Source of the DNA: Bacillota bacterium
GTDB taxonomy: Bacteria > Bacillota > Negativicutes > Sporomusales > Sporomusaceae
Reading direction: 5' to 3'
Length of the DNA: 64,000 nt
NCBI GenBank assembly: GCA_017889705.1
Contig: JAGGAB010000017.1
Coordinates: 22,591-86,590 of the forward strand
Part shown: positions 12,138 to 38,468 of the stretch, piece by piece
How the letters are laid out: every line of letters starts with the position of its first letter
Numbering within the stretch: position 1 is the first letter of the stretch
The notes under the pieces: model-generated
Seen by the model: the letters and a program-made list of their open reading frames with translations, nothing else
Told to the model about the DNA's origin: nothing
Database searches by the model: none
Program-made: the position numbers and the translations under genes

Positions 12138-12253
12138 AAAGTCGCTTGCGTATAGTATCTGAGCAAAACTCAGACACAGAATAGACAAGCCTAGCTTTTT
12201 CTTAAGACACAGCAAATTGTTGCTGTGCTAGAGGGCTGGGCTTGTTATTTTTT
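12138..12253 (+). promoter_or_regulatory. Element X, copy 1: riboswitch-like leader with overlapping terminator
   Basis: Aptamer-like core 12138-12198: outer pair AAAG/CTTT, helix GCTTG/CAAGC, conserved TATAGTAT, then hairpin CTGAG-CAAAA-CTCAG. The 3' strand (AAGCCTAGC, 12187-12195) is also the 5' arm of a terminator that closes with GCTGGGCTT (12235-12243) and a T tract. An inner hairpin ACAGCAA/TTGCTGT sits in the terminator loop. The two folds exclude each other. Bases 12254-12421 hold no further structure I can support before the DUF3870 gene. Confidence 0.75.
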
Positions 12254-12421
12254 AGGTAGGGACATTAAGCTGGAGAGGGAATAGGGCTAAAGAATATTTC
12301 GCAAGAAATGTCGAAATTTTTAATAAGTTACAGAGGATTTTGACTACTATAGATAGAATATTGCGACACAGAAGGTGCTAATTGTAATGCCTGCTCAAAC
12401 TAAATAATAGGAGGGTAAATC

Positions 12422-12808
12422 TTGAAGGCGATACATCTTTTTTCCGGACATGGGCAACTCCCCGCCGGCACAGATTTATATGAGACAAGCCGCTATGCCA
12501 CTATTGTCTTAACAGTCAATATCGAAACCGGAGAAGTTATAGACTGCGTTATCCCAAATTACTGCGAGATGCATCAGAGTTTTGTAGCAGATATCATTCG
12601 GGGTAAGTATTTGGATAGTGATAGTGTGTCTATAATTTCTGAACTTGAGGAAAGAGTCCATAGCTTATCGACACGAGCCTTAATCACGGCGTTTCAGCAG
12701 GCACATAATCGGTATATGGTATACAAGGGACATTCTGTCAGTCAGTATTCTGGAAACGGTAGAAGTGTCTTAGCCAGAGAAAAAAAATTACGAAAAGTGG
12801 CAGATTAG
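12422..12808 (+). CDS. DUF3870 family protein, copy 1
   Basis: A 128-residue protein I assign to the DUF3870 family, whose function is unknown. It begins MKAIHLFSGHGQLPAGT and is clearly paralogous to the product at 13193: both share IHxFSGxxQL, an E-T-x-x-Y-x-T/I block, GEVxDC, and a C-terminal HSLSxxALITAxQxxHNRY. It looks soluble and compact, with no signal peptide. TTG 12422 is the start because TAGGAGGG lies 6-14 bases upstream; no in-frame ATG precedes the conserved residues. Its transcript is led by element X copy 1. Expression with the aromatic island suggests a role there or in molybdo-enzyme supply, but this is inference only. Confidence 0.75.
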   Translation: MKAIHLFSGHGQLPAGTDLYETSRYATIVLTVNIETGEVIDCVIPNYCEMHQSFVADIIRGKYLDSDSVSIISELEERVHSLSTRALITAFQQAHNRYMVYKGHSVSQYSGNGRSVLAREKKLRKVAD

Positions 12809-12830
12809 ACTGAAAAAACAAAAAAATCAG

Positions 12831-12858
12831 TTGACTAAAAACAAAAAAATATTATAAT
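12831..12858 (+). promoter_or_regulatory. Promoter before element X copies 2 and 3
   Basis: TTGACT (12831-12836), 16-base A-rich spacer, TATAAT (12853-12858). No comparable promoter is visible between copies 2 and 3. Confidence 0.65.
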
Positions 12859-12892
12859 AAATACAGTAAGTTAAAATAAATTCTATTTTACC

Positions 12893-12997
12893 GAGTCGCT
12901 TGATTATAGTAACGGAACAAAATTCCGATATTGAGTAAACAAGCCCAGCTCAGTTCGCGATTACTTAAGATCGTGTATTGTGCTGGGCTTTTTTGTT
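12893..12997 (+). promoter_or_regulatory. Element X, copy 2
   Basis: Core 12893-12951: GAG/CTC outer pair, GCTTG/CAAGC helix, TATAGTAAC, hairpin CGGAA-CAAAA-TTCCG. The terminator AAGCCCAGC (12941-12949) / GCTGGGCTT (12982-12990) plus a T tract reuses the 3' strand of the core. The hairpin sequence differs from copy 1 but pairing is kept. Confidence 0.75.
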
Positions 12998-13054
12998 TGT
13001 TAAGCGCTTAGGCTAGACGAAAAGTTTGAATTCAACTACATATGCGATGCACGC

Positions 13055-13163
13055 GAGTCGCTTGATTATGGTAACGGAACAAAATTCCGATATTACAAAG
13101 TAAGCAAGCTAAGCTCAGATCACAGTCGTTTTAGATTGTGTATTGAGTTTGGCTTGCTTTTTC
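13055..13163 (+). promoter_or_regulatory. Element X, copy 3 (tandem with copy 2)
   Basis: Core 13055-13116: GAG/CTC, GCTTG/CAAGC, TATGGTAAC, hairpin CGGAA-CAAAA-TTCCG. Terminator GCAAGCTAAGCTC (13104-13116) with GAGTTTGGCTTGC (13145-13157), then a T tract. It ends 29 bases before the second DUF3870 gene. With copy 2 it forms a two-element leader, each element with its own terminator. Confidence 0.75.
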
Positions 13164-13192: not shown

Positions 13193-13531
13193 GTGAATTA
13201 TATTCATATATTTTCCGGTAATGCCCAACTAGCCGAGGGGTCAGATATTCACGAGACATATAAGTACATTACTGTAGTAGCAAAGATTGATGTGCGAAAC
13301 GGAGAAGTCGTCGACTGTGATGTCCCGGTTTTTTGTGAGGGAAGCAGTGCTTTTATAGCGGAAATTCTTATTGGTAAGAACATTGCGGAAGATTTGGATG
13401 AGGTTATTGATGAGATTGAAACCCGCATGCATTCATTATCAAAATGGGCGCTTATTACCGCTATTCAGACCATGCACAATCGCTATATCATGTACAAAAG
13501 AAATTGCTTGAAGAGTAGTAATTGCTCCTGA
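13193..13531 (+). CDS. DUF3870 family protein, copy 2
   Basis: A 112-residue paralogue of the product at 12422, beginning MNYIHIFSGNAQLAEGSD, with the same GEVVDC and HSLSKWALITAIQTMHNRY blocks. It is shorter at the C terminus. GTG 13193 follows GAGGAGGAG by 7 bases. The leader contains two element X copies in series. It stands directly upstream of the cupin gene and the transhydroxylase island and may be the first gene of that operon. The function of the family is unknown to me. The duplication, with separate but related leaders, suggests differently tuned expression. Confidence 0.75.
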   Translation: MNYIHIFSGNAQLAEGSDIHETYKYITVVAKIDVRNGEVVDCDVPVFCEGSSAFIAEILIGKNIAEDLDEVIDEIETRMHSLSKWALITAIQTMHNRYIMYKRNCLKSSNCS

Positions 13532-13626: not shown

Positions 13627-13962
13627 GTGAAAGTTATCAAGGCTAATGAGGGAAATGTTTATGAAGCACAAAACCACTTTAACATGTGGGGCATTAGAAA
13701 GTTTGGTCCGTCAGATGGCTCTAAATCTGTAAATGTATCCATTTCGGAGTTTCTGCCAAATGGCGGCGCATCCATGACAGCTTCCAACAAAGAAAGGATT
13801 TATTGCGTTCTTCGGGGTTCGATTACTGTACATGATGAGAATGGACAAGCCCATGTACTTGATGCAGGAGATATGATTTACATTGCCCCGGGGGAAAAAC
13901 GTGACATGGCAGTTAACGGCCTCGTCGCAGCCAGAGTTTTAGTCATTGTTACTGATTGTTAA
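13627..13962 (+). CDS. Small cupin-domain protein
   Basis: Single-domain cupin of 111 residues. The core runs from about residue 40 to 105, with PNGGASMTASNKERIYCVLRG and the second motif DAGDMIYIAPGEKRDM. The first motif lacks the usual HxH metal-binding pair, having S/N in those places, so metal binding is uncertain and it may bind a ligand without catalysis. GTG 13627 has AAGGGGGTG upstream. Its position between the DUF3870 gene and the dehydrogenase puts it in the aromatic island. It could bind a pathway intermediate or act in a ring-opening or tautomerising step, but nothing in the sequence decides this. Confidence 0.7.
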   Translation: MKVIKANEGNVYEAQNHFNMWGIRKFGPSDGSKSVNVSISEFLPNGGASMTASNKERIYCVLRGSITVHDENGQAHVLDAGDMIYIAPGEKRDMAVNGLVAARVLVIVTDC

Positions 13963-13993
13963 ACCCGGTTCACAGAGACAAAAGGAGACTACT

Positions 13994-14953
13994 ATGAAAA
14001 TTGAGGACCTTAAGAAAATCGCCGTATTAGGCACTGGGACAATGGGGCCTGGTATAGCGCAGAGCTATGCTATGGGTGGTTTTGAAGTAAATGTATATGA
14101 CAAAAGCGAAAGCGCAATGGAAAAGGCCGAGATCATGCTGCAGGCCAATTTGGACACATTTGTGGAGGAAGGATTACTAACAGCCGACGAAGCGCGGCAA
14201 GTCGCGGGCCGGATATCTTACTGTAAAACTATATCTGAAGCAGTTGCCGGTGTGCAGTTCGTACAGGAGACTGTGAGTGAGAAACCGGAAATAAAAACAA
14301 CGGTCTTTGCAGAACTGGACCAGCTGCTTCCTGATGATGTCATCATTGCATCAAATGCATCTGCACTGAATCCATTTACCTGTGTGCCGGAGCGGAGATT
14401 GCCGAATTTTACCACAGCACACTGGTATGCTCCTCCTCATATAATCCCGTTGGTTGAGGTAGCTAAAGGAGAAAGAACTTCTGAAGATGCAATGTCGGTA
14501 ACCGTTGAACTGCTCCAGCGCTGTGGAAAGACTGCTGTCAGAATGGAGAAGTTTGTCCCAGGCTATATCATAAACAGAATTCAGATACTTCTTAATACTG
14601 AAGTCTTTTATTTACTGGATAACGGCATATGTACGCCGGAGCAAATAGATCTTGCGGTCAAAGCGAGTTTTATGCCTCGCGGCATGGTATTAGGACTTGT
14701 GCAACGGTATGATTTCACCGGCCTAGATATCAGTGCCAATAATATTGTAAACGCAAGCTATGTTATGCCTGAGACCAGCAAACGTCCCAAAGTCTTGTTT
14801 GACCATGTGGACAAAGGTGAGCTTGGTGTCAAGACCGGTAAGGGCTTTTTCGACTACAGCGGCCGTAGTGCTGCAGAGGTGTGCCAAAAACGTGATAGGA
14901 TGCTACTCAAGGTATTTAAAGAAACAAAAAATCTTATCAACGAAAAAATCTAA
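13994..14953 (+). CDS. 3-hydroxyacyl-CoA-dehydrogenase-family enzyme, candidate 3-hydroxy-5-oxohexanoate dehydrogenase
   Basis: NAD-binding Rossmann domain with GTGTMG at residues 13-18, then the family's C-terminal helical domain; the 319-residue length is normal. The block SNASALNP and HWYAPPHIIPLVEV correspond to the catalytic region of 3-hydroxyacyl-CoA dehydrogenases. In the anaerobic phloroglucinol route described from Clostridium scatologenes, 3-hydroxy-5-oxohexanoate is oxidised to triacetate by an enzyme that I recall as belonging to this family. Given its neighbours this is the best candidate, though a beta-oxidation role is possible. ATG 13994 follows AAAGGAG; the in-frame codons upstream overlap the cupin gene and lack family match. 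Confidence 0.75.
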   Translation: MKIEDLKKIAVLGTGTMGPGIAQSYAMGGFEVNVYDKSESAMEKAEIMLQANLDTFVEEGLLTADEARQVAGRISYCKTISEAVAGVQFVQETVSEKPEIKTTVFAELDQLLPDDVIIASNASALNPFTCVPERRLPNFTTAHWYAPPHIIPLVEVAKGERTSEDAMSVTVELLQRCGKTAVRMEKFVPGYIINRIQILLNTEVFYLLDNGICTPEQIDLAVKASFMPRGMVLGLVQRYDFTGLDISANNIVNASYVMPETSKRPKVLFDHVDKGELGVKTGKGFFDYSGRSAAEVCQKRDRMLLKVFKETKNLINEKI

Positions 14954-14995
14954 ATTGCTAAAAATAATTAGTACTCTTTGAACGGAGGCGAATTT

Positions 14996-16297
14996 GTGGA
15001 TCCGACAATTGTTGGTATTATTGGGTCGGTTGCCATGATTGTATTTATCGTGCTTGGCGTACATATCGGCACGAGTATGGCGATAACTGGTTTCTTGGGA
15101 ATGGTGGCGCTAACCAATCTAGATGCTGCCTGGGGTATTTTACAGACTACTCCTTACAGCAGTATGGCTAACTATGGCTTAAGCGTAATTGTGCTATTTG
15201 TATTAATGGGGCAGTTGGCTTATCATTCAGGACTTAGTTATGACATGTACCGGGCGGCTTACACCTGGCTTGGACATTTGCCAGGAGGATTGGCTATGTC
15301 GACCATTGTTGCCTGTACAGGAATTGGAGCTTTATGTGGTTCGACAACCGCCACTACGGCTACGATGGGGATTGTTGCATTGCCGGAAATGAAAAAGTTT
15401 GGTTATCAGGGCGGTTTTTCCGCTGCGACGGTAGCTTGTGCAGGGACTTTGGGCACCATGGTGCCGCCCAGCGTGCTGCTGATGTTATATGGTGTTATGT
15501 GTTCTTTGTCAATTGGAAAGCTGTTTTCTGCCGTTATTATTCCAGGTGTATCTTTGATGTTTGCCTATATAGTTGTAGCTTATATTATGATCAAACGGAG
15601 GCCGGAACTGGGGCCGCAGGGGCAGAAGTACAGCTGGAAAGAGCGTTTTGAAGCCCTTTATCATGTTAAAGATTTGCTGCTCCTGATAGTTATTGTTATT
15701 GGCGGGATGCTTGCAGGGCTCTTTACCGTCAATGAGGGAGGCGCCATGGGGGTATTTGGAGCGCTTATCGTTGCGGCTTTACGTCGAAAACTGAGTGTTG
15801 AAATGCTTAAAAAGGCACTCCTTGATGCCGGTAAAACTTCAGCCATGATTTTCATGATTATCATCGGCGCGATGATTTTTAATCAATTCCTAGCCGTATC
15901 TCGTTTGCCTGGTGAGATGGCATCCTTCTTCTCTGATTTGCCGGTTCACCGTAATCTGGTAATGGTTGGGATGATCATCGTTTATATTTTTCTCGGTGCA
16001 ATCATGGATGAAATTGGAATGCTGCTGCTAACAATACCTATCTTTTACCCTGTTATTCAGGCGCTTCAGTTTAACCCATACTGGTTTGGCGTAATTCTGG
16101 TGCTTGTTATGGCATCAGGTATGATATGCCCGCCTGTAGGTATGAATTGTTTCATTATTGCTGGTGTAGATAAATCAATCAGCTTACAAACAATCTATAA
16201 GGGCGTTTGGCCCTACTGGTTTGCTCTTGTTGCAATGATGGTGTTAATGTTTATTATTCCAGAACTAGCTACATTCTTACCACAATTTCTCGAATAG
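14996..16297 (+). CDS. dctM: TRAP transporter large permease (DctM)
   Basis: Integral membrane protein of 433 residues with about 11-12 hydrophobic segments, typical of the large TRAP permease that imports carboxylates using an ion gradient. The block GTLGTMVPPSVLLMLYGV and the C-terminal MICPPVGMNCFIIAGV are family signatures. GTG 14996 follows GGAGG at 14984-14988. It is encoded with dctP and dctQ in the order M-P-Q. Its position in the island makes uptake of a phenolic acid such as gallate, or of a ring-cleavage acid, the likely job (inference). Confidence 0.88.
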   Translation: MDPTIVGIIGSVAMIVFIVLGVHIGTSMAITGFLGMVALTNLDAAWGILQTTPYSSMANYGLSVIVLFVLMGQLAYHSGLSYDMYRAAYTWLGHLPGGLAMSTIVACTGIGALCGSTTATTATMGIVALPEMKKFGYQGGFSAATVACAGTLGTMVPPSVLLMLYGVMCSLSIGKLFSAVIIPGVSLMFAYIVVAYIMIKRRPELGPQGQKYSWKERFEALYHVKDLLLLIVIVIGGMLAGLFTVNEGGAMGVFGALIVAALRRKLSVEMLKKALLDAGKTSAMIFMIIIGAMIFNQFLAVSRLPGEMASFFSDLPVHRNLVMVGMIIVYIFLGAIMDEIGMLLLTIPIFYPVIQALQFNPYWFGVILVLVMASGMICPPVGMNCFIIAGVDKSISLQTIYKGVWPYWFALVAMMVLMFIIPELATFLPQFLE

Positions 16298-16348
16298 GTC
16301 ACTGACAAACGTCAGGACACTATAAAAAAATCAAGGGGGAAAAAAGAA

Positions 16349-17410
16349 ATGAAGAAAAAGTGGAAGATTTTAACCGTGGGTTTACTGGTGTTGTCTTTAG
16401 CTATTAGTTTGCTGGCAGGATGCGGCAGTTCAAAAGATGCTGCGAGCGACGGTAAAAAGGTAACAAAGCTAAAATTTACGCACCATAACCCGCCGAATGC
16501 GTTTGTTTGTACGCAAGGTATGGAGCCATGGGCAAAAGAGATCGAAAAGAAAACTGGCGGTCAAGTCAAAATTGATATCTATCCGTCTTCAACGCTGGCT
16601 AAACCGCAGGATGCTTATGACTCAGTTATTAAGGGAACAGCAGATATTGCTTGGGGCTATATTACTTATTATCCGGGACGCTTCCCGCTGACAGAGGTAT
16701 TGAATTTGCCTATGTTAGGAGTAAATAAGGCTACTATGGGCAGTAAAGTTATATGGGAATTGTTCCAAAAAACTCCGGCCATGCAAAAAGAATTTGCTGA
16801 CGTAAAAGTGCTGATGCTCCACACGCATGACGGTGCGCCTGTAACCTCGCGCAAGCCAATTAATAACCTGGATGACATGGCCGGTAAAAAATTGCGTACA
16901 GCCGGAGGACCGTTAGTACCTTATCTCCAGTCGATTGGCGCATCTCCAATGGCAATGCCGGCTCCTGACACTTACCAGGCAACTGAAAAAGGCGTTATTG
17001 ACGGAGCCGTTATGGCGTGGGAAGCAGTTGAAATGTTGAATTTACAGGAAGTCGCCAAAAATGCTGTTGATGCTAATGTTGCTTCAGGTACCTTTTTCTT
17101 AATAATGAATAAAAAGGCCTGGGACAGCCTGACACCAGAACAACAAAAAGTATTTGAAGAAGAAAGCGGCGACAAAGCCAGTCAGTTATTTGCTAAGGCA
17201 TGGGACAACACTAAGACTTCGTCCACTAATAAATTTACTAAAGCCGGTGGAAAAATTTTAACTCCTGATGCAGCAGAATTAGCCCGCTGGAAGGAAAAGG
17301 CAAAGCCTGTCTGGGATAAATGGGCAAATGATCTAGAGGCAAAAGGGTTGCCCGGGAAAGCAGTGTTGGCTGACACCTTACAATTGATTGAAAAATATAA
17401 AGGACAATAG
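16349..17410 (+). CDS. dctP: TRAP transporter substrate-binding lipoprotein (DctP)
   Basis: Extracytoplasmic solute receptor of 353 residues. The N terminus has positive charges, a hydrophobic stretch and a lipobox LLAGC ending near residue 26, so it is anchored as a lipoprotein. DctP-family features include YPSSTLAKPQDAYDSVIKGTADIAWG and the substrate-arginine region VTSRKPINNLDDMAGKKLRTAGG. Ligand specificity cannot be read from sequence, but the flanking genes point to an aromatic or small organic acid. RBS is AAGGGGGAAA before ATG 16349. Confidence 0.88.
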   Translation: MKKKWKILTVGLLVLSLAISLLAGCGSSKDAASDGKKVTKLKFTHHNPPNAFVCTQGMEPWAKEIEKKTGGQVKIDIYPSSTLAKPQDAYDSVIKGTADIAWGYITYYPGRFPLTEVLNLPMLGVNKATMGSKVIWELFQKTPAMQKEFADVKVLMLHTHDGAPVTSRKPINNLDDMAGKKLRTAGGPLVPYLQSIGASPMAMPAPDTYQATEKGVIDGAVMAWEAVEMLNLQEVAKNAVDANVASGTFFLIMNKKAWDSLTPEQQKVFEEESGDKASQLFAKAWDNTKTSSTNKFTKAGGKILTPDAAELARWKEKAKPVWDKWANDLEAKGLPGKAVLADTLQLIEKYKGQ

Positions 17411-17467
17411 GCCGGATATGCTTTTGTGTAAAGGTTAGACTCTGTAATTTGAGGAGGTGTGAGCGGG

Positions 17468-17974
17468 TTGTTACTATTTAAAGAGTACGTCTATAAACTA
17501 AGCGCCAGTTTGAATCTAATTGGCCTTTCGCTGACATTAGTCATGGTTGCAACAGTGGTAGTGGATATCTTTGGGCGTGCTCTCTTTAATATACCGCTGC
17601 AAGGATCTTATGAATTAGTCGAGTGCATCATGGGTTTGGTTATTGTATTCGCCATTGGTTATACGCAGGTGCGTAATTCCCATATTAATGTACCCGGCGT
17701 AATCGAGCTGCTTCCGCAAAGCGGTCAGAGAACAGCGAATGCAGTTGTCAATTTGATTGGTTTTGTCACATATAGTTTGTTTGCTTGGCAGGCCTTTATC
17801 AAGGCAGGCACGGAAATCAAAGCTCAAACTGTATCAGCAGTGCTGGCAATTCCCAAATATCCTTTCTTGTATGCCTGTGCCTTTGGCTTTGGTGTTCTGG
17901 CGCTGGTTTATCTGGCGCAAGCTTTTGCACCAGATGAGGTGGAAGAAAGTGATGAAACGGAAATAGGTGTTTGA
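17468..17974 (+). CDS. dctQ: TRAP transporter small permease (DctQ)
   Basis: Four-helix membrane protein of about 168 residues matching the small TRAP permease. Helices lie near residues 13-35, 45-65, 85-105 and 125-150, with the family's DIFGRALFNIPLQGSYELVE after helix 1. The start is uncertain. A GTG at 17459 lies almost on top of GAGGAGG (17451-17457), so TTG 17468, 10 bases beyond it, is more plausible. The gene completes the M-P-Q set. Its last bases overlap upstream in-frame codons of the following SDR frame. Confidence 0.82.
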   Translation: MLLFKEYVYKLSASLNLIGLSLTLVMVATVVVDIFGRALFNIPLQGSYELVECIMGLVIVFAIGYTQVRNSHINVPGVIELLPQSGQRTANAVVNLIGFVTYSLFAWQAFIKAGTEIKAQTVSAVLAIPKYPFLYACAFGFGVLALVYLAQAFAPDEVEESDETEIGV

Positions 17975-18009
17975 GCTTTACGCAGACAAGTGGTAGAGGA
18001 GTTGTTTAT

Positions 18010-18789
18010 ATGTTGGAGTTGTTTTCACTCAAAGGAAAAAACGCGATTGTTATTGGCGGTGCCGGCGGTATTGGCCAAGCGATCGCCCAAGGCTTGGCAG
18101 CAGCAGGCGCCACGGTAGGCATTGCCAGTAGAAGTGTTGAGTCTTTGCAAAGAGCAGTGCAGGAAATAAAGGAAGCCTGTCAGCTTGATGTCAGATATTA
18201 CACGGTTGACGCAGCTAATGAAGAGAGTATTGCGGCGTTGGTCAAGGCTTCGGTTTTAGATATGGGTAAAGTTGATATATTAGTCAATGCTCAGGGTTTT
18301 AATAAAAAGTTCAACGCGGAAGAGTTCCCTGCAGATGTTTTCAGGCAGATGTTTGACGTAAATGTCACTGGCGTAATGCTGTGCTGTAAACATTTCGGCA
18401 AGCACATGATTAAGAACGGGTATGGCAAAATCGTTAACGTATCATCTGTTCGCGGCAGAATTGCCACCCGTCATCCAGGTAATGCAGGATATTGCGGCAC
18501 CAAGGGCGCTTTGGACATGATTACCCGTCAGTTAGCGTCCGAGTTTGGCAAATACAACGTTACCGTTAATGCTATTGGGCCGACAGTTACGGAAACACCG
18601 ATGATGACTGAGATTCTGAATAGCCGTGGACCAGATGCAAGAAAAGAAATGGCGGAGCAGTTGCCAATGAAACGAATGGCTCTGCCGTCTGATTGTGTAG
18701 GACCTGCTGTGTTCTTGTGTTCTGATGCATCAGGCTTTGTAACCGGCAATATCATTTATCCAGATGGTGGTCTTACAGCTATTGGTTAA
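18010..18789 (+). CDS. Short-chain dehydrogenase/reductase, candidate phloroglucinol reductase
   Basis: Classical SDR of 259 residues with GGAGGIG (residues 16-22) for nucleotide binding, an N-x-x-G-like segment in VNAQGF, the serine in NVSSVRG and the catalytic pair YCGTK near residue 160. It ends with the typical PDGGLTAIG. Phloroglucinol reductase, which makes dihydrophloroglucinol with NADPH, belongs to this superfamily. Location beside the transhydroxylase and the ring-opening and side-chain genes makes that role likely. ATG 18010 has AGAGGAG ending 8 bases upstream; the codons before it overlap dctQ. Confidence 0.75.
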   Translation: MLELFSLKGKNAIVIGGAGGIGQAIAQGLAAAGATVGIASRSVESLQRAVQEIKEACQLDVRYYTVDAANEESIAALVKASVLDMGKVDILVNAQGFNKKFNAEEFPADVFRQMFDVNVTGVMLCCKHFGKHMIKNGYGKIVNVSSVRGRIATRHPGNAGYCGTKGALDMITRQLASEFGKYNVTVNAIGPTVTETPMMTEILNSRGPDARKEMAEQLPMKRMALPSDCVGPAVFLCSDASGFVTGNIIYPDGGLTAIG

Positions 18790-18812
18790 ACACTACTAAG
18801 GGAGATGCAGAT

Positions 18813-21062
18813 ATGGGATACGATAAAATTGTTACATCAACAGCATGGTCTCCTGGCCCTGGTTGTCACGGTGGATGTGGTGTGAAGCTATATGTTCAGG
18901 ATGACAAGGTTGTACACGTAGAAGGTGATGAACAGCACCCCTTTAGCAATGGCCGCGCCTGTCCTCGCTTGTTGGCAATGACACAATATATGTATCACCC
19001 CGACCGTATTACCTACCCGCTTAAACGGGTAGGTGAACGGGGTGAAGGGAATTTTGAGCGGATTACCTGGGACGAAGCGTTGGATATTATTGAGGAAAAA
19101 TTAAGCGGCATAAAAGAAGAATACGGTCCTGAGTCAGTGCTGTTTTGTCAGGGAACCGGACGGGATATTGGTGGGCCTATTTCTTTCTTGGCTTATTCTT
19201 ATGGCAGTCCCAATTGGGTTCAATTAGGATTAGGCGGTCATTCGTGTTATACACCTCGGCTTGGCGCCATGATGGCAACACATGGTGACTATGCGGTTAT
19301 GGATGCGGCTCAATTTTCGGAACAACGATATGATGACCCAGAGTATCAAGTGCCCAAGGTTATTATAATCTGGGGACAAAATCCAATGCCAGGTTGTCCG
19401 GATGGCTTTTTCGGCCACTGGGTTGTTGATTGCATGAAGCGGGGTTCAAAACTGATAGTTATTGATCCACGTTGGACCTGGTTCTCTTCCCGGGCAGAAC
19501 AGTTTTTGCAAATCAGGCCTGGTACTGATGGCGCACTGGCATTAGGCTTTATTAATGTCATTATCGATGAAGAACTGTACGACAAGGAATTTGTTGAAAA
19601 CTGGACAGAAGGCTTTGAAGAGCTGCGGCAGCGAGCAGCAGAATATCCACCCGAACGGGTTGCGGAAATCACCTGGATTCCGAAGGAAGATATCATTGCT
19701 GCTGCCCGGCTGTATGCGGGTGCTAAGCCGGCTGCTATTCATTGGGGTGTTCCAATCGATATGAATCCGGAAGGCTCAACCGTTGCTCAGGCTATCAGCC
19801 ATTTATGGTGTTTAACCGGCAATTTGGAGGTACCGGGTGGTAATATCATTGCCCGGCCCTCGCATGGTGTAACTACGTATCCCTTCTCTACTCAAGAAAT
19901 GCATGAACTCTATGGCGAAGATTTTGTAAAGCGTATGAATGAAAAACGGATCGGAGCCAAAGAGTATGCGATGGTCAGAAACTTCCGGGGCTGGGCGCAA
20001 CCTGATGTAACGGTGCAACAGATGCTGAGCGGTAAACCTTACCCGATCAAAGCCTGCTGGATTCAAACCAGTAATATATTGGGGGGCCAAGCGGTTGATG
20101 TGAAACTGCATCACGAAGCGTTGAAAAAGATGGATTTTGTTGTAGTGGCTGATCTGTTCCACAATCCGACATCAATGGCTGTTGCAGACATCATTCTGCC
20201 TGTTGCCTCTTTTGCCGAAAAGGAAAGTTTCCGCTCCTGGTGGGCGCCGTTGCAGGTGATTTCACCGGCAGTCAAGGTCGGCGAATGCCGGTCAGATTGG
20301 GAAATTAATCTGGAGCTGGCCAAACGGTTTAATCCAGAACTCAAAAGACGTTATGAAACTGTTAAAGATCTTATTAATGACAGGATGAAAATCGCTGGGA
20401 CAACCTATGAGCAATTGCAGAAAGATGGCGGTTGGGTAATGCCTGCTAGGAACAGTTCCACACGGCCTTACCGACGGCATGAAAAAGGGTTGCTGCGTCC
20501 TGATGGAAAGCCAGGTTTTCGGACACCGTCAGGCAAAGTTGAATTTTCCAGCCGAAGTTATGGCGAGTGGGGGCTTGATCCCTTACCCTACTTCAGTGAG
20601 CCGCCGGCAAGTGAAGTACGTACGCCGGAACAATTTGAAAAGTATCCGTTAATCATGGTGACAGGGCGTCGTTCATCCGTGTATTTCCACTCCGAACACC
20701 GAATGATTCCATGGCTGCGTGAGTGTGATCCTGACCCAGTTGTTGAAATCCACCCCAGTGTGGCTAACCCATTAGGGGTTGAGAATGGCGAATGGGTTTA
20801 TATTGAGAATGATCAAGGGCGGATTAGACGCAAGGCAGTGGTGACACCGATTGTGCATCCCAAAGTAATTAGTGTACCTCATGGTTGGTGGCTGCCGGAG
20901 CAGTCCGGCAAAGAACCAAACTTGTTTGGTATCTGGGATATCAATTGTAATGTGCTGACGCCGACTGGTACTCAAAGCAAATCCGGCTATGGCGGCGGGG
21001 CTTATAAAACTACGCTGGTTAAGATTGTGAAGATCAGGGAAAGGCAGGAGCGCAATGGCTAG
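18813..21062 (+). CDS. Molybdopterin-dependent oxidoreductase catalytic subunit (DMSO-reductase superfamily), substrate unknown
   Basis: A 749-residue bis-molybdopterin enzyme. The N-terminal cluster motif has only C18, C22 and C50, spaced C-x3-C-x27-C; the usual first cysteine, expected near residue 14, is Pro. A possible Mo-ligand Cys is C145 in GGHSCYTPR. The C-terminal cofactor-binding part ends with the usual GTQSKSGYGGGAYKT. No twin-arginine signal is visible, so it should be cytoplasmic. It overlaps by 8 bases a small ferredoxin-like subunit. Relatives include thiosulfate/arsenate-reductase-like enzymes and catechol dehydroxylases. In this island it could dehydroxylate a polyphenol or form the tetrahydroxybenzene cosubstrate of the transhydroxylase. 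Both ideas are inference. Confidence 0.85.
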   Translation: MGYDKIVTSTAWSPGPGCHGGCGVKLYVQDDKVVHVEGDEQHPFSNGRACPRLLAMTQYMYHPDRITYPLKRVGERGEGNFERITWDEALDIIEEKLSGIKEEYGPESVLFCQGTGRDIGGPISFLAYSYGSPNWVQLGLGGHSCYTPRLGAMMATHGDYAVMDAAQFSEQRYDDPEYQVPKVIIIWGQNPMPGCPDGFFGHWVVDCMKRGSKLIVIDPRWTWFSSRAEQFLQIRPGTDGALALGFINVIIDEELYDKEFVENWTEGFEELRQRAAEYPPERVAEITWIPKEDIIAAARLYAGAKPAAIHWGVPIDMNPEGSTVAQAISHLWCLTGNLEVPGGNIIARPSHGVTTYPFSTQEMHELYGEDFVKRMNEKRIGAKEYAMVRNFRGWAQPDVTVQQMLSGKPYPIKACWIQTSNILGGQAVDVKLHHEALKKMDFVVVADLFHNPTSMAVADIILPVASFAEKESFRSWWAPLQVISPAVKVGECRSDWEINLELAKRFNPELKRRYETVKDLINDRMKIAGTTYEQLQKDGGWVMPARNSSTRPYRRHEKGLLRPDGKPGFRTPSGKVEFSSRSYGEWGLDPLPYFSEPPASEVRTPEQFEKYPLIMVTGRRSSVYFHSEHRMIPWLRECDPDPVVEIHPSVANPLGVENGEWVYIENDQGRIRRKAVVTPIVHPKVISVPHGWWLPEQSGKEPNLFGIWDINCNVLTPTGTQSKSGYGGGAYKTTLVKIVKIRERQERNG

Positions 21063-31315: not shown

Positions 31316-31319
31316 ACAT

Positions 31320-31354
31320 AATATGCCCAGTGCGGCTATCGCACTGGGCATATT
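31320..31354 (+). repeat. Perfect 15-bp inverted repeat between cyclase and MFS genes
   Basis: Arms AATATGCCCAGTGCG and CGCACTGGGCATATT around GCTAT. No T tract follows, so it looks like a stabiliser or attenuator rather than a classical terminator. Confidence 0.7.
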
Positions 31355-31381
31355 GCAATTGATGTAAAGGAGCGTAATCCC

Positions 31382-32740
31382 ATGCAAACCCTCAATGTAA
31401 AACAGTTAATTGATGAAGGGGCTTTAACAAGATTCCATATCCGGGTTTTTCTGTGCTGTATCATATCACTCACTTTTGAAGGTTATGATCTTGTTGCATT
31501 TGGCGCAACAATTCCGCTGCTGTTATCTGAGTGGAACATGTCGCCGGCTTATGCTGGTGTTATTGCTAGTTATGGATTTGGGGCAGCGGTTATTGGTGCG
31601 ATTATCGGTGGTGCACTTGGTGATAAATGGGGGAGAAAAAATACCATTATTACCTCGGTAATCATTTTCTCCTTAGGAACACTTGCATGCGCTTTGTCTA
31701 AAGACCCAACCACCTTTGCTTTTTTTCGGACTTTGACGGGAATCGGCATGGGAATGACACTCCAAAACGAAGTGGGGCTGGTTTCTGAGTACTTTCCTAA
31801 TAAATATCGGCAGACAGCGGTTGCCGGTGTTGCAACCGGCATGCAATTAGGCGGAATTATGTCGGCGTTTGCGGCGATGTGGCTGATGATACCTTATGGC
31901 TGGCCGTCAGTATATTACCTTGGGGCTTTGCCGATCCTGCTTGTTCCCGTCTTGCTTAAATATATGCCTGAAGCACCGTGGCTGCTTGTTGCTAAAAAGC
32001 GGCAGACGGACCTCGAAGCGGTATTGAAGAAGCTACGTCCAGATGTGAAGGTAACACCAGAGGACACTTTCGAGTATCCCAAGGCCTTTGATAAGTCTTC
32101 ACTAGCAAAGGTTTTTGCAGATAATCGCGCTTTGAGTGCGATCTTATTTTGGATTGTATATTTTATGAACATCTTTGTCATTTGGGGAACAAACACATGG
32201 ATTCCCAAGCTAATGATGGATGCTGGACATGGTTTAGGAGCCAGCTTATGGATTTACATGAGTATGTATCTAGGGGCACTTGTTGCTAGCCCGATTTTTG
32301 GTCAGTTTGCCGATCGCTTTGGAGCAAAGAAGGTTTCTGTTTTTGCATATTTTATTGGCTTTATCAGCATTCTGCAATTAAGCATGCCTATGGATATAGC
32401 TGCGACAATGGCTGTGGTTGCGATCGCCGGAGCCTGCAATGCGGGGGCACAGAATTTGACTCATGCTTATGTGGCGCAGTTTTTTTCGCCAAATGTTAAA
32501 TCGACAATGATGGGCTGGGGGTTATCGATCGGCCGCATCGGTGGACTGCTTGGACCAGTCGTCGGCGGAGTCTTGCTGTCAATGAAGGTCTCCTTATTTC
32601 AGAGTTTTCTCGCGTTCGCAACGCCGTGTTTATGCTCTGCTTTGGCCATTTACTTTGTTCAAGATCAATATAGTTATATGAATGAAACCGAAGCGCAAGT
32701 AGAATTGGCAGCAGAACCTACTGTAAATAAAGGTTTATAG
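31382..32740 (+). CDS. MFS transporter, aromatic acid:H+ symporter (AAHS)-like
   Basis: A 452-residue carrier with about 12 helices. Helix 1 reads FEGYDLVAFGATIPLLL, the D-containing motif typical of aromatic acid:proton symporters (PcaK, BenK type), and the MFS loop 2-3 motif is GALGDKWGRKNTII. Helix 4 to 5 has RTLTGIGMGMTLQNE. Together with the island this suggests uptake of gallate or another hydroxybenzoate. The ATG at 31382 follows AAGGAGCG. Confidence 0.85.
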   Translation: MQTLNVKQLIDEGALTRFHIRVFLCCIISLTFEGYDLVAFGATIPLLLSEWNMSPAYAGVIASYGFGAAVIGAIIGGALGDKWGRKNTIITSVIIFSLGTLACALSKDPTTFAFFRTLTGIGMGMTLQNEVGLVSEYFPNKYRQTAVAGVATGMQLGGIMSAFAAMWLMIPYGWPSVYYLGALPILLVPVLLKYMPEAPWLLVAKKRQTDLEAVLKKLRPDVKVTPEDTFEYPKAFDKSSLAKVFADNRALSAILFWIVYFMNIFVIWGTNTWIPKLMMDAGHGLGASLWIYMSMYLGALVASPIFGQFADRFGAKKVSVFAYFIGFISILQLSMPMDIAATMAVVAIAGACNAGAQNLTHAYVAQFFSPNVKSTMMGWGLSIGRIGGLLGPVVGGVLLSMKVSLFQSFLAFATPCLCSALAIYFVQDQYSYMNETEAQVELAAEPTVNKGL

Positions 32741-32769
32741 CGAAAAACGTCTGCGATTGGGGGAAGGCG

Positions 32770-33420
32770 ATGAAAAAAGGAGATTGTTTATGGTTGGCAG
32801 CGTTAATCACTGTGAGCACTTTGTTGTTCTTGCCGGAATTTCACCAAGCATTTCTTGTACTTACCAAGAACCATCCATATCTAATGGGGTTTATAAAATT
32901 CTCGTTGCTTGCGACTATGGGCGAAATGCTTGCTTTACGGATTGAGAAGAAAACTTGGTCTCAACCACCTATACTTCCTGCCCGCATTGTGATTTGGGGC
33001 TTAATTGGCATAATGATCGTACTGATGTTTGAACTATACATGAGCGGGGTACATGGCGTTGCTGCTAAAGGGCTTTTGTGGACAGGCCAAGGAGCAACAA
33101 GAGAGTTTTGGTTTGCATTTTATGTCTCTGTAACCATGAATTTGACGTTTGCGCCGATTTTTATGGCTGTTCACCGCGTTTTGGATACCTATTTGGACGT
33201 GATTGCAAACTCAATAGAGACTTGGCCGCGGTTTGCATTAAGTGATTTACTAAATCGCATCAACTGGCAAGTATTTATCATTTTTATTGCTAAGACAGTG
33301 ATTTTCTTTTGGATACCTGCACATACACTTACTTTTTTACTGCCGCCGGAATATCGGGTTGTAGTCGCAGCATATCTGTCTATTGTTTTAGGGGCAATTT
33401 TAGCATATGGCAAAAGATGA
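32770..33420 (+). CDS. Multi-pass membrane protein, possibly Mpv17/PMP22-like
   Basis: A 216-residue protein with four or five hydrophobic helices. The C-terminal block (NWQVFIIFIAKTVIFFWIPA, then HTLTFLLPPEYRVV) resembles the Mpv17/PMP22 signature of W-x-P-A-H-x-x-x-F-x-x-P-x-x-x-R. That is a weak assignment made by eye. No enzymatic motif is seen. It lies between a transporter and a chemoreceptor in the island, 29 bases after the AAHS gene, and may affect membrane transport or be unrelated. Confidence 0.6.
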   Translation: MKKGDCLWLAALITVSTLLFLPEFHQAFLVLTKNHPYLMGFIKFSLLATMGEMLALRIEKKTWSQPPILPARIVIWGLIGIMIVLMFELYMSGVHGVAAKGLLWTGQGATREFWFAFYVSVTMNLTFAPIFMAVHRVLDTYLDVIANSIETWPRFALSDLLNRINWQVFIIFIAKTVIFFWIPAHTLTFLLPPEYRVVVAAYLSIVLGAILAYGKR

Positions 33421-33475
33421 TATAGGTAGTTGCACCGCAAAGGCAAAAAATAGATTTAAGTGAGAGGTGTATCTT

Positions 33476-35449
33476 GTGAAGAGTATCAGAGCTAAGCTTG
33501 CTATAATCGTGATTGCATTATTCATAGTTTCCCTCTGCGGATTAAGTGGGCTGAATTACTGGCAAGCCCGCAATATACTGGTTGGAGAGTTGGAAACCGA
33601 GTTAGCATTGCAAACTCAAAGCTATAGTAAGGAATTTGCAGCCTGGATTAAATATTCGCAAACAGAAGTTGCAACAATTAGTCGGTCACCCATTTTAAGA
33701 AGCAGTAATAACGCGACAATCGTGCCCTATATTGCTGCTGAAGTAAAGAATAACAGCTTGTATGAAACGATGCTTTGGATTGACGCTACAGGAAAATCGG
33801 TTAATGCCGATGGTGTTGTTCGCAATGACAGTGAACGTGATTATTTTAAGCAAGCTATGACTGGTAAAACAGTTGTTTCAGGCCCGAACGTTTCCAAGGG
33901 TACGGGAAAACCGATTATATCTATCGCTGTACCTGTACGTGAAAATAATCATGTGATTGGAGTTCTAGCCGGCATTGTCACCGTTGAAAAACTTGAAGAA
34001 TTGGTACTCGGTATCAAATCAGGTGATAGTGGATATGCCTTTGTTGTTAGAGGAGACGGTCTCACGCTAATACATCCAGACAAAGATAAAGCAGGAAAAG
34101 AGAATATCATTACAGCCAGCGCTAATGCACCTGACTTTGCGACAATGGCAAATAAGATGGTATTGGGCGAGCGTGGCTTTGGTGTATACAGCGATAAAGG
34201 GATCACAAAATATCTGGCCTATGAACCTATTGCGGGAACTAACTGGTCACTGGGTATTAACATTCCCGTGCATGAAGCGACAGCGCGCCTTAGTGTATTT
34301 GCCTGGACCTCGCTTGTCACAATCAGCATTGTCTTAATTGTAGCTATCGGTATCATATTTATGATAGCGAGTTTTTTGGTAAAACCATTGCGGGAATTAA
34401 CAGGTGCAGCTCAAGCTATTGCTGACGGAGACCTTAGGCTGCAGCGACTATCTGTTAATTCCCAAGATGAAGTAGGGCGGCTGGCTCGCTCCTTCGAAAC
34501 GATGATCGAAAACTTGCGTAGTCTTGTTAAACGTATCGGCACATCATCAGAGACTCTCTCTGTTTCAACAGATGAATTAGCTAATAACTTTGACAACTCT
34601 GCCCAAGCAGTCACTCAGGTCGCAGTTGCCATATCCGATGCGACGCAAGGCCTTGAACGCCAGGTAAGAGCCATTAGCGCTGCTATGAAGAAAGGCGAAG
34701 AAATTGCCACCGCAGCCAGCAAAGATGTTACAAAAATGAAAACGGCAACAGATAGTGCTGATAATGCGGTAGTGGCTGTAGAAACCGGTATTACAGCTGT
34801 AACTTCTGCTGTCGATCAAATGTACCAAATTCGCCAAGTGGTTGATAATTCGGCAACAGTAATAACCGAGCTTGGTAGTCAGTCGAACGCGATTGGCCAA
34901 ATTGTCGAAACGATTTCCAATATTGCTGGACAAACTAATTTATTGGCACTTAATGCGGCAATAGAAGCTGCGCGGGCCGGGGAACAAGGGCGCGGCTTTG
35001 CCGTTGTTGCCGAAGAAGTACGAAAGCTTGCTGAGCAGTCGCAAGAGGCGGCAAAAAAAATTGCGACATTAATTAGCGATATTCAAGATAAAACAAATCA
35101 TGCAGTTAAGGCAATGCAAGACGGGACACAAGAAGTCCTTCGGGGCGAAAAAGTTGTCACGCAAGCCGGAAAAGCGTTTGATGATGTTAGTTCCCATATT
35201 AAAGCAGTTGCGGGCATAGCTCGAGAAACGGTTGTGGCACTGGAACAAACAGCAGCTGACGGACTGAAGCTTAGCTCAGTTTTGCAAGAAGCGGAACAAA
35301 TCAGCCGTGAAATTTTAAATCAAACAGAAACTATGTCTGCTGCGATCGAGGAACAATCGGCTGCGATGGAGGAAGTTGCCTCTTCCGGCCAAGAACTGGC
35401 AGGCTTGGCAGACGGACTGAAAGTAGAAATAGCTAGGTTTAAATGCTAA
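33476..35449 (+). CDS. Methyl-accepting chemotaxis protein with dCache-type sensor
   Basis: Membrane chemoreceptor of 657 residues: helix 1 (about 8-28), extracellular double-Cache sensor (about 33-280, including [18 protein letters not shown] and [19 protein letters not shown]), helix 2 (about 282-305), HAMP (to about 360) and a cytoplasmic signalling domain with the conserved tip [20 protein letters not shown]. No C-terminal CheR-tether pentapeptide is seen; the end is ARFKC. GTG 33476 is 8 bases after GAGAGG. Its position suggests sensing of a pathway aromatic or organic acid, which is inference. Confidence 0.9.
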
Positions 35450-35495
35450 CAAGCAGTGTGGTTAGTGATATTTAAGGAGCGAAAGGGGTTATATT

Positions 35496-36677
35496 ATGAG
35501 AGATGTTGTTATTGTTAGTGCAGTTAGAACGGCTGTAGGAAGTTTCAATGGGGCATTGGCTTCATTTTCTGCTGTTGAATTGGGTGCGAGTGTTATCCGA
35601 GAGGCGGTGGCGCGAGCTGGTATTAAACCGGGAGCAGTGGATGACCTGGCTTTTGGCCATGTTTTGCAAGCTGGACAAGGACAGAATACAGCCCGACAGG
35701 CGGCCCTTGTGGCAGAATTGCCTACTGAAACCCCTGCGTTTACTATTAACAAAGTATGTGGTTCTGGTTTAAAGAGTGTCAATTTAGCTGCTCAGGCAAT
35801 TCGCGCTGGCGATGCCGATATTATTGTTGCAGGCGGTATGGAAAGCATGACAAATGCTGCCTATGTTCTAGATGGAAAAACGCGCTGGGGTATGCGGATG
35901 GGGCATGGTGCCATTACAGACACCATGATTAACGATGGGCTGTGGTGTGCATTTAATAACTATCACATGGGGATTACTGCAGAAAATGTTGCGGACAAGT
36001 ATGGTATATCCCGCGAAGAGCAGGATATGGTAGCTTATGAGTCGCAGATGAAAGCTGTGGCAGCTATTGGCCGGGGTGATTTCAAGAAAGAAATATTGCC
36101 AATAACAATTAAAACGAAAAAAAGCGAAATAGTGTTTGATACAGATGAATTTCCAAAGGAACAAACTACACTGGCCGGTTTGAACGCTTTACGGCCAGCT
36201 TTTAAAAAGGATGGTACGGTAACTGCGGGTAATGCATCCGGAATTAATGATGGTGCAGCAGCATTAGTTATCATGTCCTCCGATAAAGCCAAGGAACTTG
36301 GGGTAAAACCATTGGCTCGTATCCGGTCCTACGCCGCTGGGGGAGTCGATCCTAAGCTTATGGGAATGGGCCCTGTGCCTGCTACTCAAAAAGCATTAGC
36401 TAAAGCTGGCCTGACAGTAAATGACCTAGATTTAATAGAAGCTAATGAGGCTTTTGCTGCGCAATTTCTGGCGGTTAGCCAGCAATTGGGATTTGTGAAG
36501 GAAAAAGTTAATGTTAACGGTGGGGCAATAGCTTTAGGGCATCCTATTGGTGCCAGCGGGGCGCGAATTTTGGTCACGTTGCTGCATGCTTTGGAAACTC
36601 GTCAAGCTAAGCTCGGGTTGGCGACACTTTGCATCGGCGGCGGTCAGGGTGTTGCCACGATTGTTGAGCGGCTATAA
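35496..36677 (+). CDS. Acetyl-CoA C-acyltransferase (thiolase), copy 2
   Basis: Thiolase of 393 residues, with nucleophile Cys in [30 protein letters not shown] and [10 protein letters not shown]. It differs clearly from the copy at 24976, for example AIGASGAR versus PLGCSGAR near the second motif. With two thiolases, one may work in the acetoacetyl-CoA cleavage direction and the other in condensation for butyrate-type products. An AAGGAG site precedes ATG 35496. Confidence 0.93.
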
Positions 36678-36753
36678 CACTACTTAGTTATAATAGACTT
36701 TAACTTAATAATAAATATTTTAAACACAAGTTAGATTGTTGTTTGGCTTGTAT

Positions 36754-36817
36754 TGCCCCTTTTAACCGTGCTCATTCCAATTTTTCCTGGGATGGTACGG
36801 TTAGGGGGCATTTTTTT
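36754..36817 (+). terminator. Intrinsic terminator after thiolase 2
   Basis: Stem TGCCCC + AACCGT pairing with ACGGTT + GGGGCA around a 30-base loop, then seven T. This may close the aromatic-island transcript. Confidence 0.75.
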
Positions 36818-36888
36818 GCAAAGGATTTGCCGGGTTATTGGGGAATATATTATTTCTGAACTCTTATTTGAAGGGGCGAGACTTGTTA

Positions 36889-38250
36889 ATGGGTGACCAA
36901 ATACAAACTAATGCAGCAGCTTCTAAGAAAACATGGTGTCGGTGGTTTGTTTTATTACTGGTTGCTTTAGTCTATTGTCTTAGTTTTATGGATCGTGTAA
37001 ATATAGGGGTGGTATTACCTGTACTTAGAAGTGAATATTCGCTTACTAATGCTCAAGCAGGACAACTGGCCAGTATGTATTTTGTCGGATATATAATCGC
37101 AGTAGTGCCTGCTGGATTCTTAATCAGTAAATATGGTTCGCGTAGTATTACCCTTTTTGGAATCATAGGATTTTCGCTGTGTACCTTTTTGATTGGAACG
37201 GCAACTTCGGCTAATCAAATTCTTTGGTACCGAGTAGGTTTAGGTAGCGCAGAAGCGCCGATTCCGCCAGGTGGAGCAACAATAATCAAGTCCTGGTTTC
37301 CGAACCGTGAGCAGGCTACAGCATCGGGGATCTTTATGGGCGCAAGTACACTGGGAATGATTTTAGCGCCTCCGGTGGCTGTTTGGATACTGGTCAACTA
37401 TAATTGGAATTATGTATTTTATTTTTTTGCTATTCCCGGGTTTATTATATCTGTACTGTGGAGGTTGTTGATACGAAATCAGCCTGAACAAATGATTCTA
37501 TGCAACTTGGCTGAGCAGCAGTATATAAAATCAGGGCAAAACGCATCTGAAGGTTCAAGTGATTTTTTTCAAGAAAAGGATAATGTTTATATTCGATTTG
37601 TCGATAAGTTTCTTTCGCAAAAATCAATAAAGTTATATGAAACACTGATTGACTTATTACAGTCACGGGACTTTTGGGGATTAATTGGCGGTTTCTGCTT
37701 TATGGGATTCGTATCAGTTGGCATAGTAATGTGGATTCCGGCTTATCTAGTGGATGTTAAAGCCATGCAATTAAGTGATATAGGATGGCTTGCTGCGGCG
37801 CAAGCTATCGGGGGCCTTGTTGGTTGTGTTGTAGGTGGTATGGTCTCAGATAATGTTCTTAATAAACGCCGCAAACCCAATATGTTGTTCACGCCAATTT
37901 CAGTACCTGTTATATTGATGTTGCTAATAGATGGAGCTGATAATACAATTGTTCTAGGTATCGAACTAATTTTACTCGGCTTTTTTCTCTATATTGCATG
38001 GTCCTGCTATTTCGCATATTTGATGCAAATTGCAGGAACCAAGATCTATCCAATTGCTTCTGCTATAATGATTGGATTTATTAGTATTTCCGGGTTCTTT
38101 TCACCAATAGTCTGTGGATATTTACTAGATGTTTATAAAAGCTATGATAATGTATTTTATTTCTGGATGCTTTCTTCATTTATGAGTTTGCTAAGCATAA
38201 GCATGATTACTGAGATGGTAGGAGAAAAGCGTGAAGAGAACAATGCTTAG
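36889..38250 (+). CDS. MFS transporter, anion:cation symporter (ACS) family-like
   Basis: A 453-residue carrier with 12 helices. The stretch SFMDRVNIGVVLPVL at helix 1 is typical of the ACS family, which carries organic anions such as phthalate, hexuronates and galactarate. ATG 36889 is favoured, with AAGGGGCG 18 bases upstream (loose spacing). In-frame codons back to 36838 start in the preceding intergenic space. Codon use is more A/T-rich than in the core island, so it may have a different history. Its substrate is open; a third importer for island substrates is one reading. Confidence 0.82.
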   Translation: MGDQIQTNAAASKKTWCRWFVLLLVALVYCLSFMDRVNIGVVLPVLRSEYSLTNAQAGQLASMYFVGYIIAVVPAGFLISKYGSRSITLFGIIGFSLCTFLIGTATSANQILWYRVGLGSAEAPIPPGGATIIKSWFPNREQATASGIFMGASTLGMILAPPVAVWILVNYNWNYVFYFFAIPGFIISVLWRLLIRNQPEQMILCNLAEQQYIKSGQNASEGSSDFFQEKDNVYIRFVDKFLSQKSIKLYETLIDLLQSRDFWGLIGGFCFMGFVSVGIVMWIPAYLVDVKAMQLSDIGWLAAAQAIGGLVGCVVGGMVSDNVLNKRRKPNMLFTPISVPVILMLLIDGADNTIVLGIELILLGFFLYIAWSCYFAYLMQIAGTKIYPIASAIMIGFISISGFFSPIVCGYLLDVYKSYDNVFYFWMLSSFMSLLSISMITEMVGEKREENNA

Positions 38251-38307
38251 CCATAACCATTGAGAAGAAATGAGATAGCCATTTTACGTATATTTTTTAC
38301 AAAACTA

Positions 38308-38336
38308 TTGAAAAAGTCAAAATTATCTATTATAAT
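38308..38336 (+). promoter_or_regulatory. Sigma-A promoter of the moaA leader
   Basis: TTGAAA (38308-38313), 17-base spacer, TATAAT (38331-38336). The start would fall about 20 bases before element X copy 4. Confidence 0.75.
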
Positions 38337-38362
38337 AAATTCATAAATTAATATCTGTACTT

Positions 38363-38468
38363 GAGTAGCTTGAGTATGGTATCAGAATAAAGTTTTGGTA
38401 CATAGTAAGCAAGCCTAGCTCCTTAGAAAACAACAATTTATGTTGTTTTCTACGAGCTAGGCTTTTTT
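38363..38468 (+). promoter_or_regulatory. Element X, copy 4, in the moaA leader
   Basis: Core 38363-38421: GAG/CTC, GCTTG/CAAGC, TATGGTATC, hairpin CAGAA-TAAAG-TTTTG (G-T pair kept). The perfect 11-bp terminator AAGCCTAGCTC (38411-38421) / GAGCTAGGCTT (38454-38464) reuses the core's 3' strand, is capped by an inner 11-bp hairpin and ends in a T tract. Confidence 0.78.

Follow-up and report, generated by a model that had tools for sequence, protein, structure and literature searches.

Element X, a candidate DUF3870-dependent antiterminator RNA in front of predicted phloroglucinol genes of Sporomusaceae

Which signal and which sensor control a short leader RNA that occurs four times around a predicted aromatic-degradation gene cluster is the question raised by a 64,000-nucleotide stretch of DNA (hereafter the window) from a Bacillota bacterium of the family Sporomusaceae (assembly GCA_017889705.1, contig JAGGAB010000017.1, positions 22,591 to 86,590 of the forward strand). 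An earlier note on this DNA described the repeat, here called element X, as a ligand-stabilised transcriptional ON switch shared by genes of the DUF3870 family and by moaA, a gene of molybdenum cofactor (Moco) synthesis. We consider it probable, though well short of assured, that X is a leader attenuator and that a diffusible DUF3870 protein opens it by binding the hairpin when a compound of the pathway that breaks down the plant phenol phloroglucinol is present.

Element X is present at all four positions given in the earlier note (12138, 12893, 13055 and 38363), and GCTTGNNTATRGTAWC matches exactly nowhere else in the 5.0-Mb genome. A refined covariance model likewise returned the four window copies as its sole matches at E <= 0.001, and four sites elsewhere that differ from the core by one mismatch looked unlike X by eye. 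The stem variants CTGAG/CTCAG, CGGAA/TTCCG and CAGAA/TTTTG were correctly described, and in each of the four copies the terminator takes its 5' arm from the 3' strand of the core (Table 1). Two details had to be amended: the shared GAG start (GAG/CTC) holds for copies 2 to 4, whereas copy 1 begins with AAAG and pairs with CTTT, so that the outer pair covaries too; and the hairpin reported as 5 bp is present, with a length of about 9 bp in the wider alignment. A pattern scan listed promoter-like sites directly upstream of X1 (12085-12113), X2 (12831-12858) and X4 (38308-38336) and none between X2 and X3, and X3 is probably read in series with X2. Because such sites are no more frequent in the first region than in shuffled sequence (3 versus 4.3; second region, 4 versus 1.5), they are taken as suggestive only.

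The covariance model and genome search proposed in the note were carried out on relatives and on the phylum, and X recurs. The four-copy model, run on 150 relatives, gave a match at E <= 1 in 30 genomes, 11 strong (E below 1e-10) and the rest weak; the 19 further genomes with weak matches were left out of the counts. A second model found X in 10 of 28 genomes of the order and, among 398 genomes drawn from the phylum, in the window's genome (G000) and G448 only, the latter being alone in carrying X among 22 genomes searched from its own order. With one duplicate and two dubious matches dropped, the family comprises 51 distinct copies. They are spread over 12 genomes, which belong to Sporomusa and relatives apart from a single one elsewhere in the phylum: G008 holds 11 copies, G016 and G021 seven each, G006 five, G000 four, G013, G020, G024, G027 and G137 three each, and G001 and G448 one each. 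Two matches without core and terminator, L088 (E 2.4e-6) and L089 (E 8e-4, in the weakly matching genome G048), were excluded from alignment and counts, and a weak twelfth copy in G008 (C101:7320, 34 bits) was not counted. Scanning named genomes with a pattern that fits 22 of the 51 aligned rows yielded 15 stretches; 13 are X, all in X-bearing genomes already counted (Sporomusa silvacetica DSM 10669, Sporomusa sp. KB1, and metagenome-assembled genomes of one Sporomusaceae, one Selenomonadales and three soil Bacillota), and L125 and L131 were set aside as chance after reading.

The consensus consists of an outer helix P1a (GAG/CTC, without the GAG in the G448 copy), a small asymmetric bulge, a second helix P1b (GCTTG/CAAGC), an asymmetric internal loop (UAYG/AGUA) and a 9-bp helix P2, whose loop has 5 nucleotides in 43 of 51 rows and 6 in four. 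The internal loop is nearly invariant (T20 in all 51 rows, A21 in 49, G23 in 45; A60 in 51, G61 in 45, T62 in 50). In the covariation alignment (A5; 51 rows, 49 of them differing, G448 left out) 94.5% of cells are paired and 12 of the 17 pairs have changed on both sides, values that none of 500 shuffles reaches, slid versions being 19-47% paired; the alignment was fitted to a model containing 13 of the 17 pairs and is biased towards those. The covariation noticed among the four copies extends to the family. The 3' strand of P1 doubles as the terminator 5' arm in 50 of 51 copies when a helix of at least 7 bp followed by a T-tract is required and G-U pairs are allowed (19% of shuffled arms), and in 45 of 51 when at least 8 bp are required (7%). 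Since this strand is common to both, antiterminator and terminator would exclude each other, and it is this sharing that places X among transcription attenuators with an exclusive antiterminator. The sole copy in which no terminator arm was found, L067:3692-3755, passes from the core directly into a T-rich tract.

The note had recognised no named class in X, and we reach the same result. No Rfam family matches X at its gathering score, and matches obtained at E up to 10 lie well below the cut-offs, many of them on terminator stems; X as a named Rfam class was rejected. The Moco riboswitch (RF01055) does not match X either, its only match in the window lying downstream of X4.

What accompanies X is a protein. 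The window has the order X1-DUF3870a-X2-X3-DUF3870b; in the bgl operon, too, the regulator gene is nested between its target elements. Both window proteins exceed the Pfam cut-off of 22 bits for PF12986, which is their sole Pfam match at E <= 0.001. Of the order's 28 genomes, 25 carry DUF3870 genes. A tree built from 70 domains (98 columns, with many unresolved forks) gathers the X-linked ones into one clade (98/94), whose 19 rows come exclusively from X-bearing genomes and represent 12 of the 12; none of the 32 rows from X-free genomes lies inside it. Fourteen of the order's 18 X-free genomes are in the tree; of the remaining four, three have no DUF3870 gene, and G007 has a broken one, which was omitted. 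G137 and G448 are represented by their X-linked genes only. Fourteen of the 19 clade genes lie within 160 nucleotides of an X; the other five are at least 2.5 kb from one, that of G024 on a different contig from its X copies. When a clade profile (16 sequences, none from G448) was run on the 398 genomes, G448 scored 144.9 bits and the next genome 78.9, and the X model had independently picked out the window's genome and G448 alone. This one DUF3870 clade, seen in none of the 18 X-free genomes of the order, is the best predictor of X. A one-to-one match of X subtypes with DUF3870 paralogues was tried and discarded as not clean.

Other DUF3870 genes have attenuators of their own. A terminator (<= -15 kcal/mol, starting no more than 320 nucleotides after the gene) follows 39 of 69 such genes and 24 of 140 controls drawn at random from labelled genes of X-bearing loci (Fisher 2e-8), and a predicted alternative upstream helix that uses the terminator 5' arm is found at 30 of 69 and 12 of 140, respectively (Fisher 2e-8). 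The terminators occur at 31 of 39 genes of the non-GI sequence type; GI-type genes (8 of 30) do not differ from controls (p 0.3), and the alternative helix is predicted at 7 of 30 (p 0.05). This split, like the two recurrent non-X RNA types A (11 loci, one by eye) and B (6 loci, two by eye), was defined after the data had been seen. Each RNA type is confined to its own DUF3870 clade without exception among the nine type A and six type B loci in the tree; these clades are moderately supported (93/74 and 91/93), four further members fell outside the examination, and L234, which was examined, showed no element. The type A antiterminator helix is paired in 99.3% of cells, with 6 of 13 pairs changed on both sides.

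A type A model (R3), built from 11 non-X elements using sequence outside the gene, was run on the 398 genomes and its matches compared with DUF3870 positions; two matches in the genome of the window and two at training loci were set aside. At 40 bits or more there are eight new matches, seven of them no farther than 60 nucleotides from a DUF3870 domain match on the same strand and the eighth 6.6 kb off. Of eight between 35 and 40 bits, two lie within 110 nucleotides (one, in G191, known before the run), two within 2 kb, and four on contigs without DUF3870; of the 23 matches that score less than 35 bits, none has such a gene close by. Nine of the first genes behind ten R3 sites (two of them training loci) have a Pfam match, to eight different families; the constant of these sites is DUF3870 plus antiterminator rather than a pathway. 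On 35 other DUF3870 loci the X model gave one weak partial match, and homology of X to the other elements is not established. Over 88 kb at E <= 10 it gave nine matches, three of which overlap other DUF3870-linked elements (L202, E 1.5; L196, E 2.2; L219, E 4.3) that make up 1% of the bases; since both kinds of element are hairpins, these overlaps are suggestive only.

The genes behind X point to the signal. They were surveyed by Pfam for representatives and by BLAST labels for the relatives of these, against the background of a phloroglucinol pathway worked out in Clostridium scatologenes with reductase, cyclohydrolase, dehydrogenase and lyase families (PMC10470551, in part). Recurring behind X are an AhtL-like pyrogallol transhydroxylase with its iron-sulfur (FeS) partner, SDR and Cyclase-family enzymes, a 3HCDH-type dehydrogenase, BKACE and thiolases, as well as PTA, acetate-kinase-like genes, CoA transferases, a cupin, chemoreceptors and transporters of the TRAP, Tct, MFS and SSF families; Moco-synthesis genes stand behind X in three genomes (G000, G008 and G137). 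No single genome has the full set behind X, and some copies precede genes with no obvious place in it (an SLH protein, a nitrogenase-like pair, unlabelled genes). Across genomes, and with roles assigned by family membership, X precedes most steps of the predicted pathway (AhtLS, reductase, cyclohydrolase, TfD, lyase and thiolase). Most simply, the inducer would be phloroglucinol or a compound below it in the pathway; the note's alternative proposal of an aromatic pathway intermediate as ligand fits this regulon. The available text on the C. scatologenes cluster (PMC10470551) mentions a transcriptional regulator and gave no match to DUF3870 or to a riboswitch.

The overlapping helices, the covariation, the predicted phloroglucinol genes behind X, the way X and a single DUF3870 clade go together and the other DUF3870-attenuator pairs can be read from the sequences themselves; that DUF3870 binds RNA, senses phloroglucinol or a downstream intermediate and turns expression ON is what we infer from them. 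The protein would bind the X hairpin, probably at the internal loop between P1 and P2, and the bound antiterminator would displace the terminator, giving readthrough when substrate is present. With the gene order of the window, the regulator would control its own expression, and the tandem X2-X3 would act as a steeper gate. The ON-type, mutually exclusive design proposed in the earlier note is retained with its covariation; its ligand-binding RNA gives way to a protein, which is the better bet as sensor because X and similar elements associate with DUF3870. Most likely, DUF3870 is both sensor and RNA-binding antiterminator, and X its phloroglucinol version. We would give even chances to a wider proposal, in which DUF3870 is a large family of small ligand-sensing RNA binders, each with its own antiterminator RNA beside catabolic operons, and phloroglucinol sensing here combines with a Moco riboswitch in an AND-NOT gate that makes cofactor for this pathway only.

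Several observations weigh against an RNA-binding DUF3870 sensor. No structural or charge clue to RNA binding was found in DUF3870: the X-linked domains are slightly acidic, and the confident model of DUF3870b (predicted local distance difference test, pLDDT, 92) resembles IscU/SufU-like folds only weakly. Genes of the GI-type subgroup have such terminators no more often than controls, and matches of the X model to the other DUF3870-linked RNA types are not significant. Common descent, moreover, could keep X and DUF3870 linked without any binding.

The main rival, which we regard as unlikely and yet as deserving attention, is that X is a true riboswitch for phloroglucinol or a downstream intermediate (dihydrophloroglucinol, 3-hydroxy-5-oxohexanoate or triacetate), with DUF3870 merely a co-regulated pathway or accessory protein. 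The small conserved internal loop, the fit of the regulon to one pathway, the tandem copies and the lack of an obvious RNA-binding signature in DUF3870 would all suit it. However, similar attenuators stand with DUF3870 before unrelated genes, so that a different ligand would be needed each time, and among the genomes searched X is confined to those with an X-clade DUF3870. Like riboswitch attenuators such as RF01055, X is a structured leader controlling a terminator, here even in series with one; unlike them, it has no Rfam match at cut-off and tracks a protein family, not a cofactor.

Judged by its RNA features, X is improbable as the target of a regulator that belongs to an established antiterminator family (ANTAR, CAT/BglG or another) and is encoded elsewhere in these genomes. 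Protein-dependent antitermination through CAT/RAT and ANTAR is known, and there is precedent for a signal-responsive protein that stabilises an antiterminator sharing a strand with the terminator (PMC3369936). In that account BglG, LicT and SacY (CAT) act on the ribonucleic antiterminator (RAT), whose antiterminator likewise shares a strand with the terminator and whose stem is likewise broken by asymmetric internal loops. X, at about 60 nucleotides, nevertheless scores 20.2 and 24.9 bits with the RAT model (bglG-cis-reg, RF03530), far below its cut-off of 80, and the window DUF3870 proteins have no PRD or CAT domain (Pfam, E <= 0.001). With ANTAR systems (EutV, NasR, AmiR) X shares the scheme of one regulator and several leaders in a catabolic cluster, such as the four eut leaders (PMC3369936, in part), but ANTAR targets are two tandem hairpins with A1 and G4 in their loops, whereas X is one bipartite hairpin with mostly a 5-nucleotide loop.

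A ligand tied to molybdenum or tungsten supply (molybdate, tungstate or a Moco precursor), the first choice of the earlier note, is very improbable for X and was rejected on the gene content behind the element. X does precede Moco-synthesis genes in the three genomes named above and molybdo-enzyme genes in several. The AhtL family (PF21423), however, has no match in the X-bearing genomes G013, G020 and G027 (G027 being 87% complete), where X stands before genes for transporters, reductase, lyase, dehydrogenase, thiolase, PTA and kinase; molybdenum is therefore not the common factor. X also precedes chemoreceptor genes, and it stands before most of the predicted phloroglucinol steps. Finally, moaA already has a Moco riboswitch in front of it, which explains the Moco input separately. 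This aptamer, missing from the note's account, separates copy 4 from moaA, the leader order being X4, its terminator, the Moco riboswitch and a second terminator, that is, two attenuators in series. The second stem looks like the terminator of the Moco riboswitch; with its 19-nucleotide loop it lay outside our terminator pattern scan, which was limited to loops of 3-8. Tandem Moco RNAs have been described (PMC2408646, in part). Together X4 and the Moco riboswitch would form a two-input switch, moaA being read only with inducer present and Moco short. The genome has three genes over the moaA cut-off, which is consistent with a pathway-dedicated copy behind X4. In G008 a Moco riboswitch likewise lies between X and moaA, with one gene intervening; in G137, where X precedes Moco genes, an Rfam search found no Moco riboswitch there.

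That the elements are ordinary inter-operon terminators with chance antiterminator pairing is hardly credible, for all the good terminator ends of 50 of 51 copies, given the double-sided covariation in the antiterminator stem, the conserved unpaired letters and the positions mostly just upstream of co-directional genes.

Our searches, which covered open-licence papers only, found no literature on an X RNA family or on DUF3870 as an antiterminator. If the DUF3870 reading is true, a domain present in 55 of the 398 genomes sampled from the phylum would gain a function, and CAT and ANTAR would be joined by another family of antiterminators that depend on a protein. The reading would also allow the regulation of anaerobic polyphenol degradation to be tested on a single RNA-protein pair and offer a source of substrate-responsive RNA parts; the X4 leader would then be a pathway switch and a Moco riboswitch standing in series.

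Table 1. Features of the window bearing on element X (positions are those of the window).
Feature	Position	Strand	Evidence
Element X copy 1, antiterminator core, upstream of DUF3870a	12136..12198	+	sequence, covariance model
Intrinsic terminator of copy 1; 5' arm is the core 3' strand	12185..12253	+	sequence; 16-bp helix, G-U included
DUF3870a, X-linked clade, candidate antiterminator protein	12422..12808	+	PF12986, 56.7 bits
Element X copy 2, first of tandem pair	12890..12952	+	sequence, covariance model
Terminator of copy 2	12941..12995	+	sequence; 9-bp helix
Element X copy 3, second of tandem pair	13052..13117	+	sequence, covariance model
Terminator of copy 3	13104..13163	+	sequence; 15-bp helix, G-U included
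DUF3870b, X-linked clade	13193..13531	+	PF12986, 71.7 bits; model pLDDT 92
Predicted phloroglucinol/pyrogallol operon(s)	13627..36677	+	Pfam matches; roles inferred from pathway in PMC10470551
Operon genes, first part: cupin, 3HCDH (TfD-like), TRAP transporter DctM/P/Q, SDR (PGR-like), molybdo-enzymes	within 13627..36677	+	
AhtL-like molybdo-enzyme with FeS subunit	21371-23977	+	domain match
Operon genes, second part: thiolase, MFS, CoA-transferase A/B, BKACE (TAL-like), two Cyclase-family (DPGC-like)	within 13627..36677	+	
Operon genes, last part: MFS, 216-aa protein without Pfam match, chemoreceptor, thiolase	within 13627..36677	+	
Element X copy 4	38360..38422	+	sequence, covariance model
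Terminator of copy 4	38411..38467	+	sequence; 11-bp helix
Moco riboswitch aptamer RF01055, directly downstream of copy 4's terminator	38478..38606	+	Rfam, 61.8 bits, E 1.9e-12
Second terminator-like stem and T-tract, between Moco aptamer and moaA	38604..38648	+	sequence; perfect 10-bp stem, 19-nt loop
moaA	38682..39662	+	domain match

Some genes around X copies call for separate mention. In G006, an X copy and an MFS gene are followed by two nitrogenase-component-1-like genes, L074:8616-10154 and its downstream neighbour. One of the two matches Oxidored_nitro in Pfam, and the other was assigned by its BLAST similarity to that one; the pair would be an odd regulon member. SLH-domain and MFS genes lie behind X copies in G008 (L063:1827, L066:675 and L067), which suggests that envelope uptake belongs to the X regulon. 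URO-D-family genes are preceded by X copies at L070:4858 and L068, and we presume that they may serve the O-demethylation of methoxylated aromatics. In the window itself, a ribonucleotide reductase gene with a TSCPD domain (9674-11896) lies just upstream of X1, and a PADLOC search left DUF3870b unmatched. In G448, a gene for a PrpR_N/sigma-54 activator (L113:12042-13970) lies directly upstream of DUF3870 and X, and relatives lie close to X in G013, G020, G027, G001 and G021.

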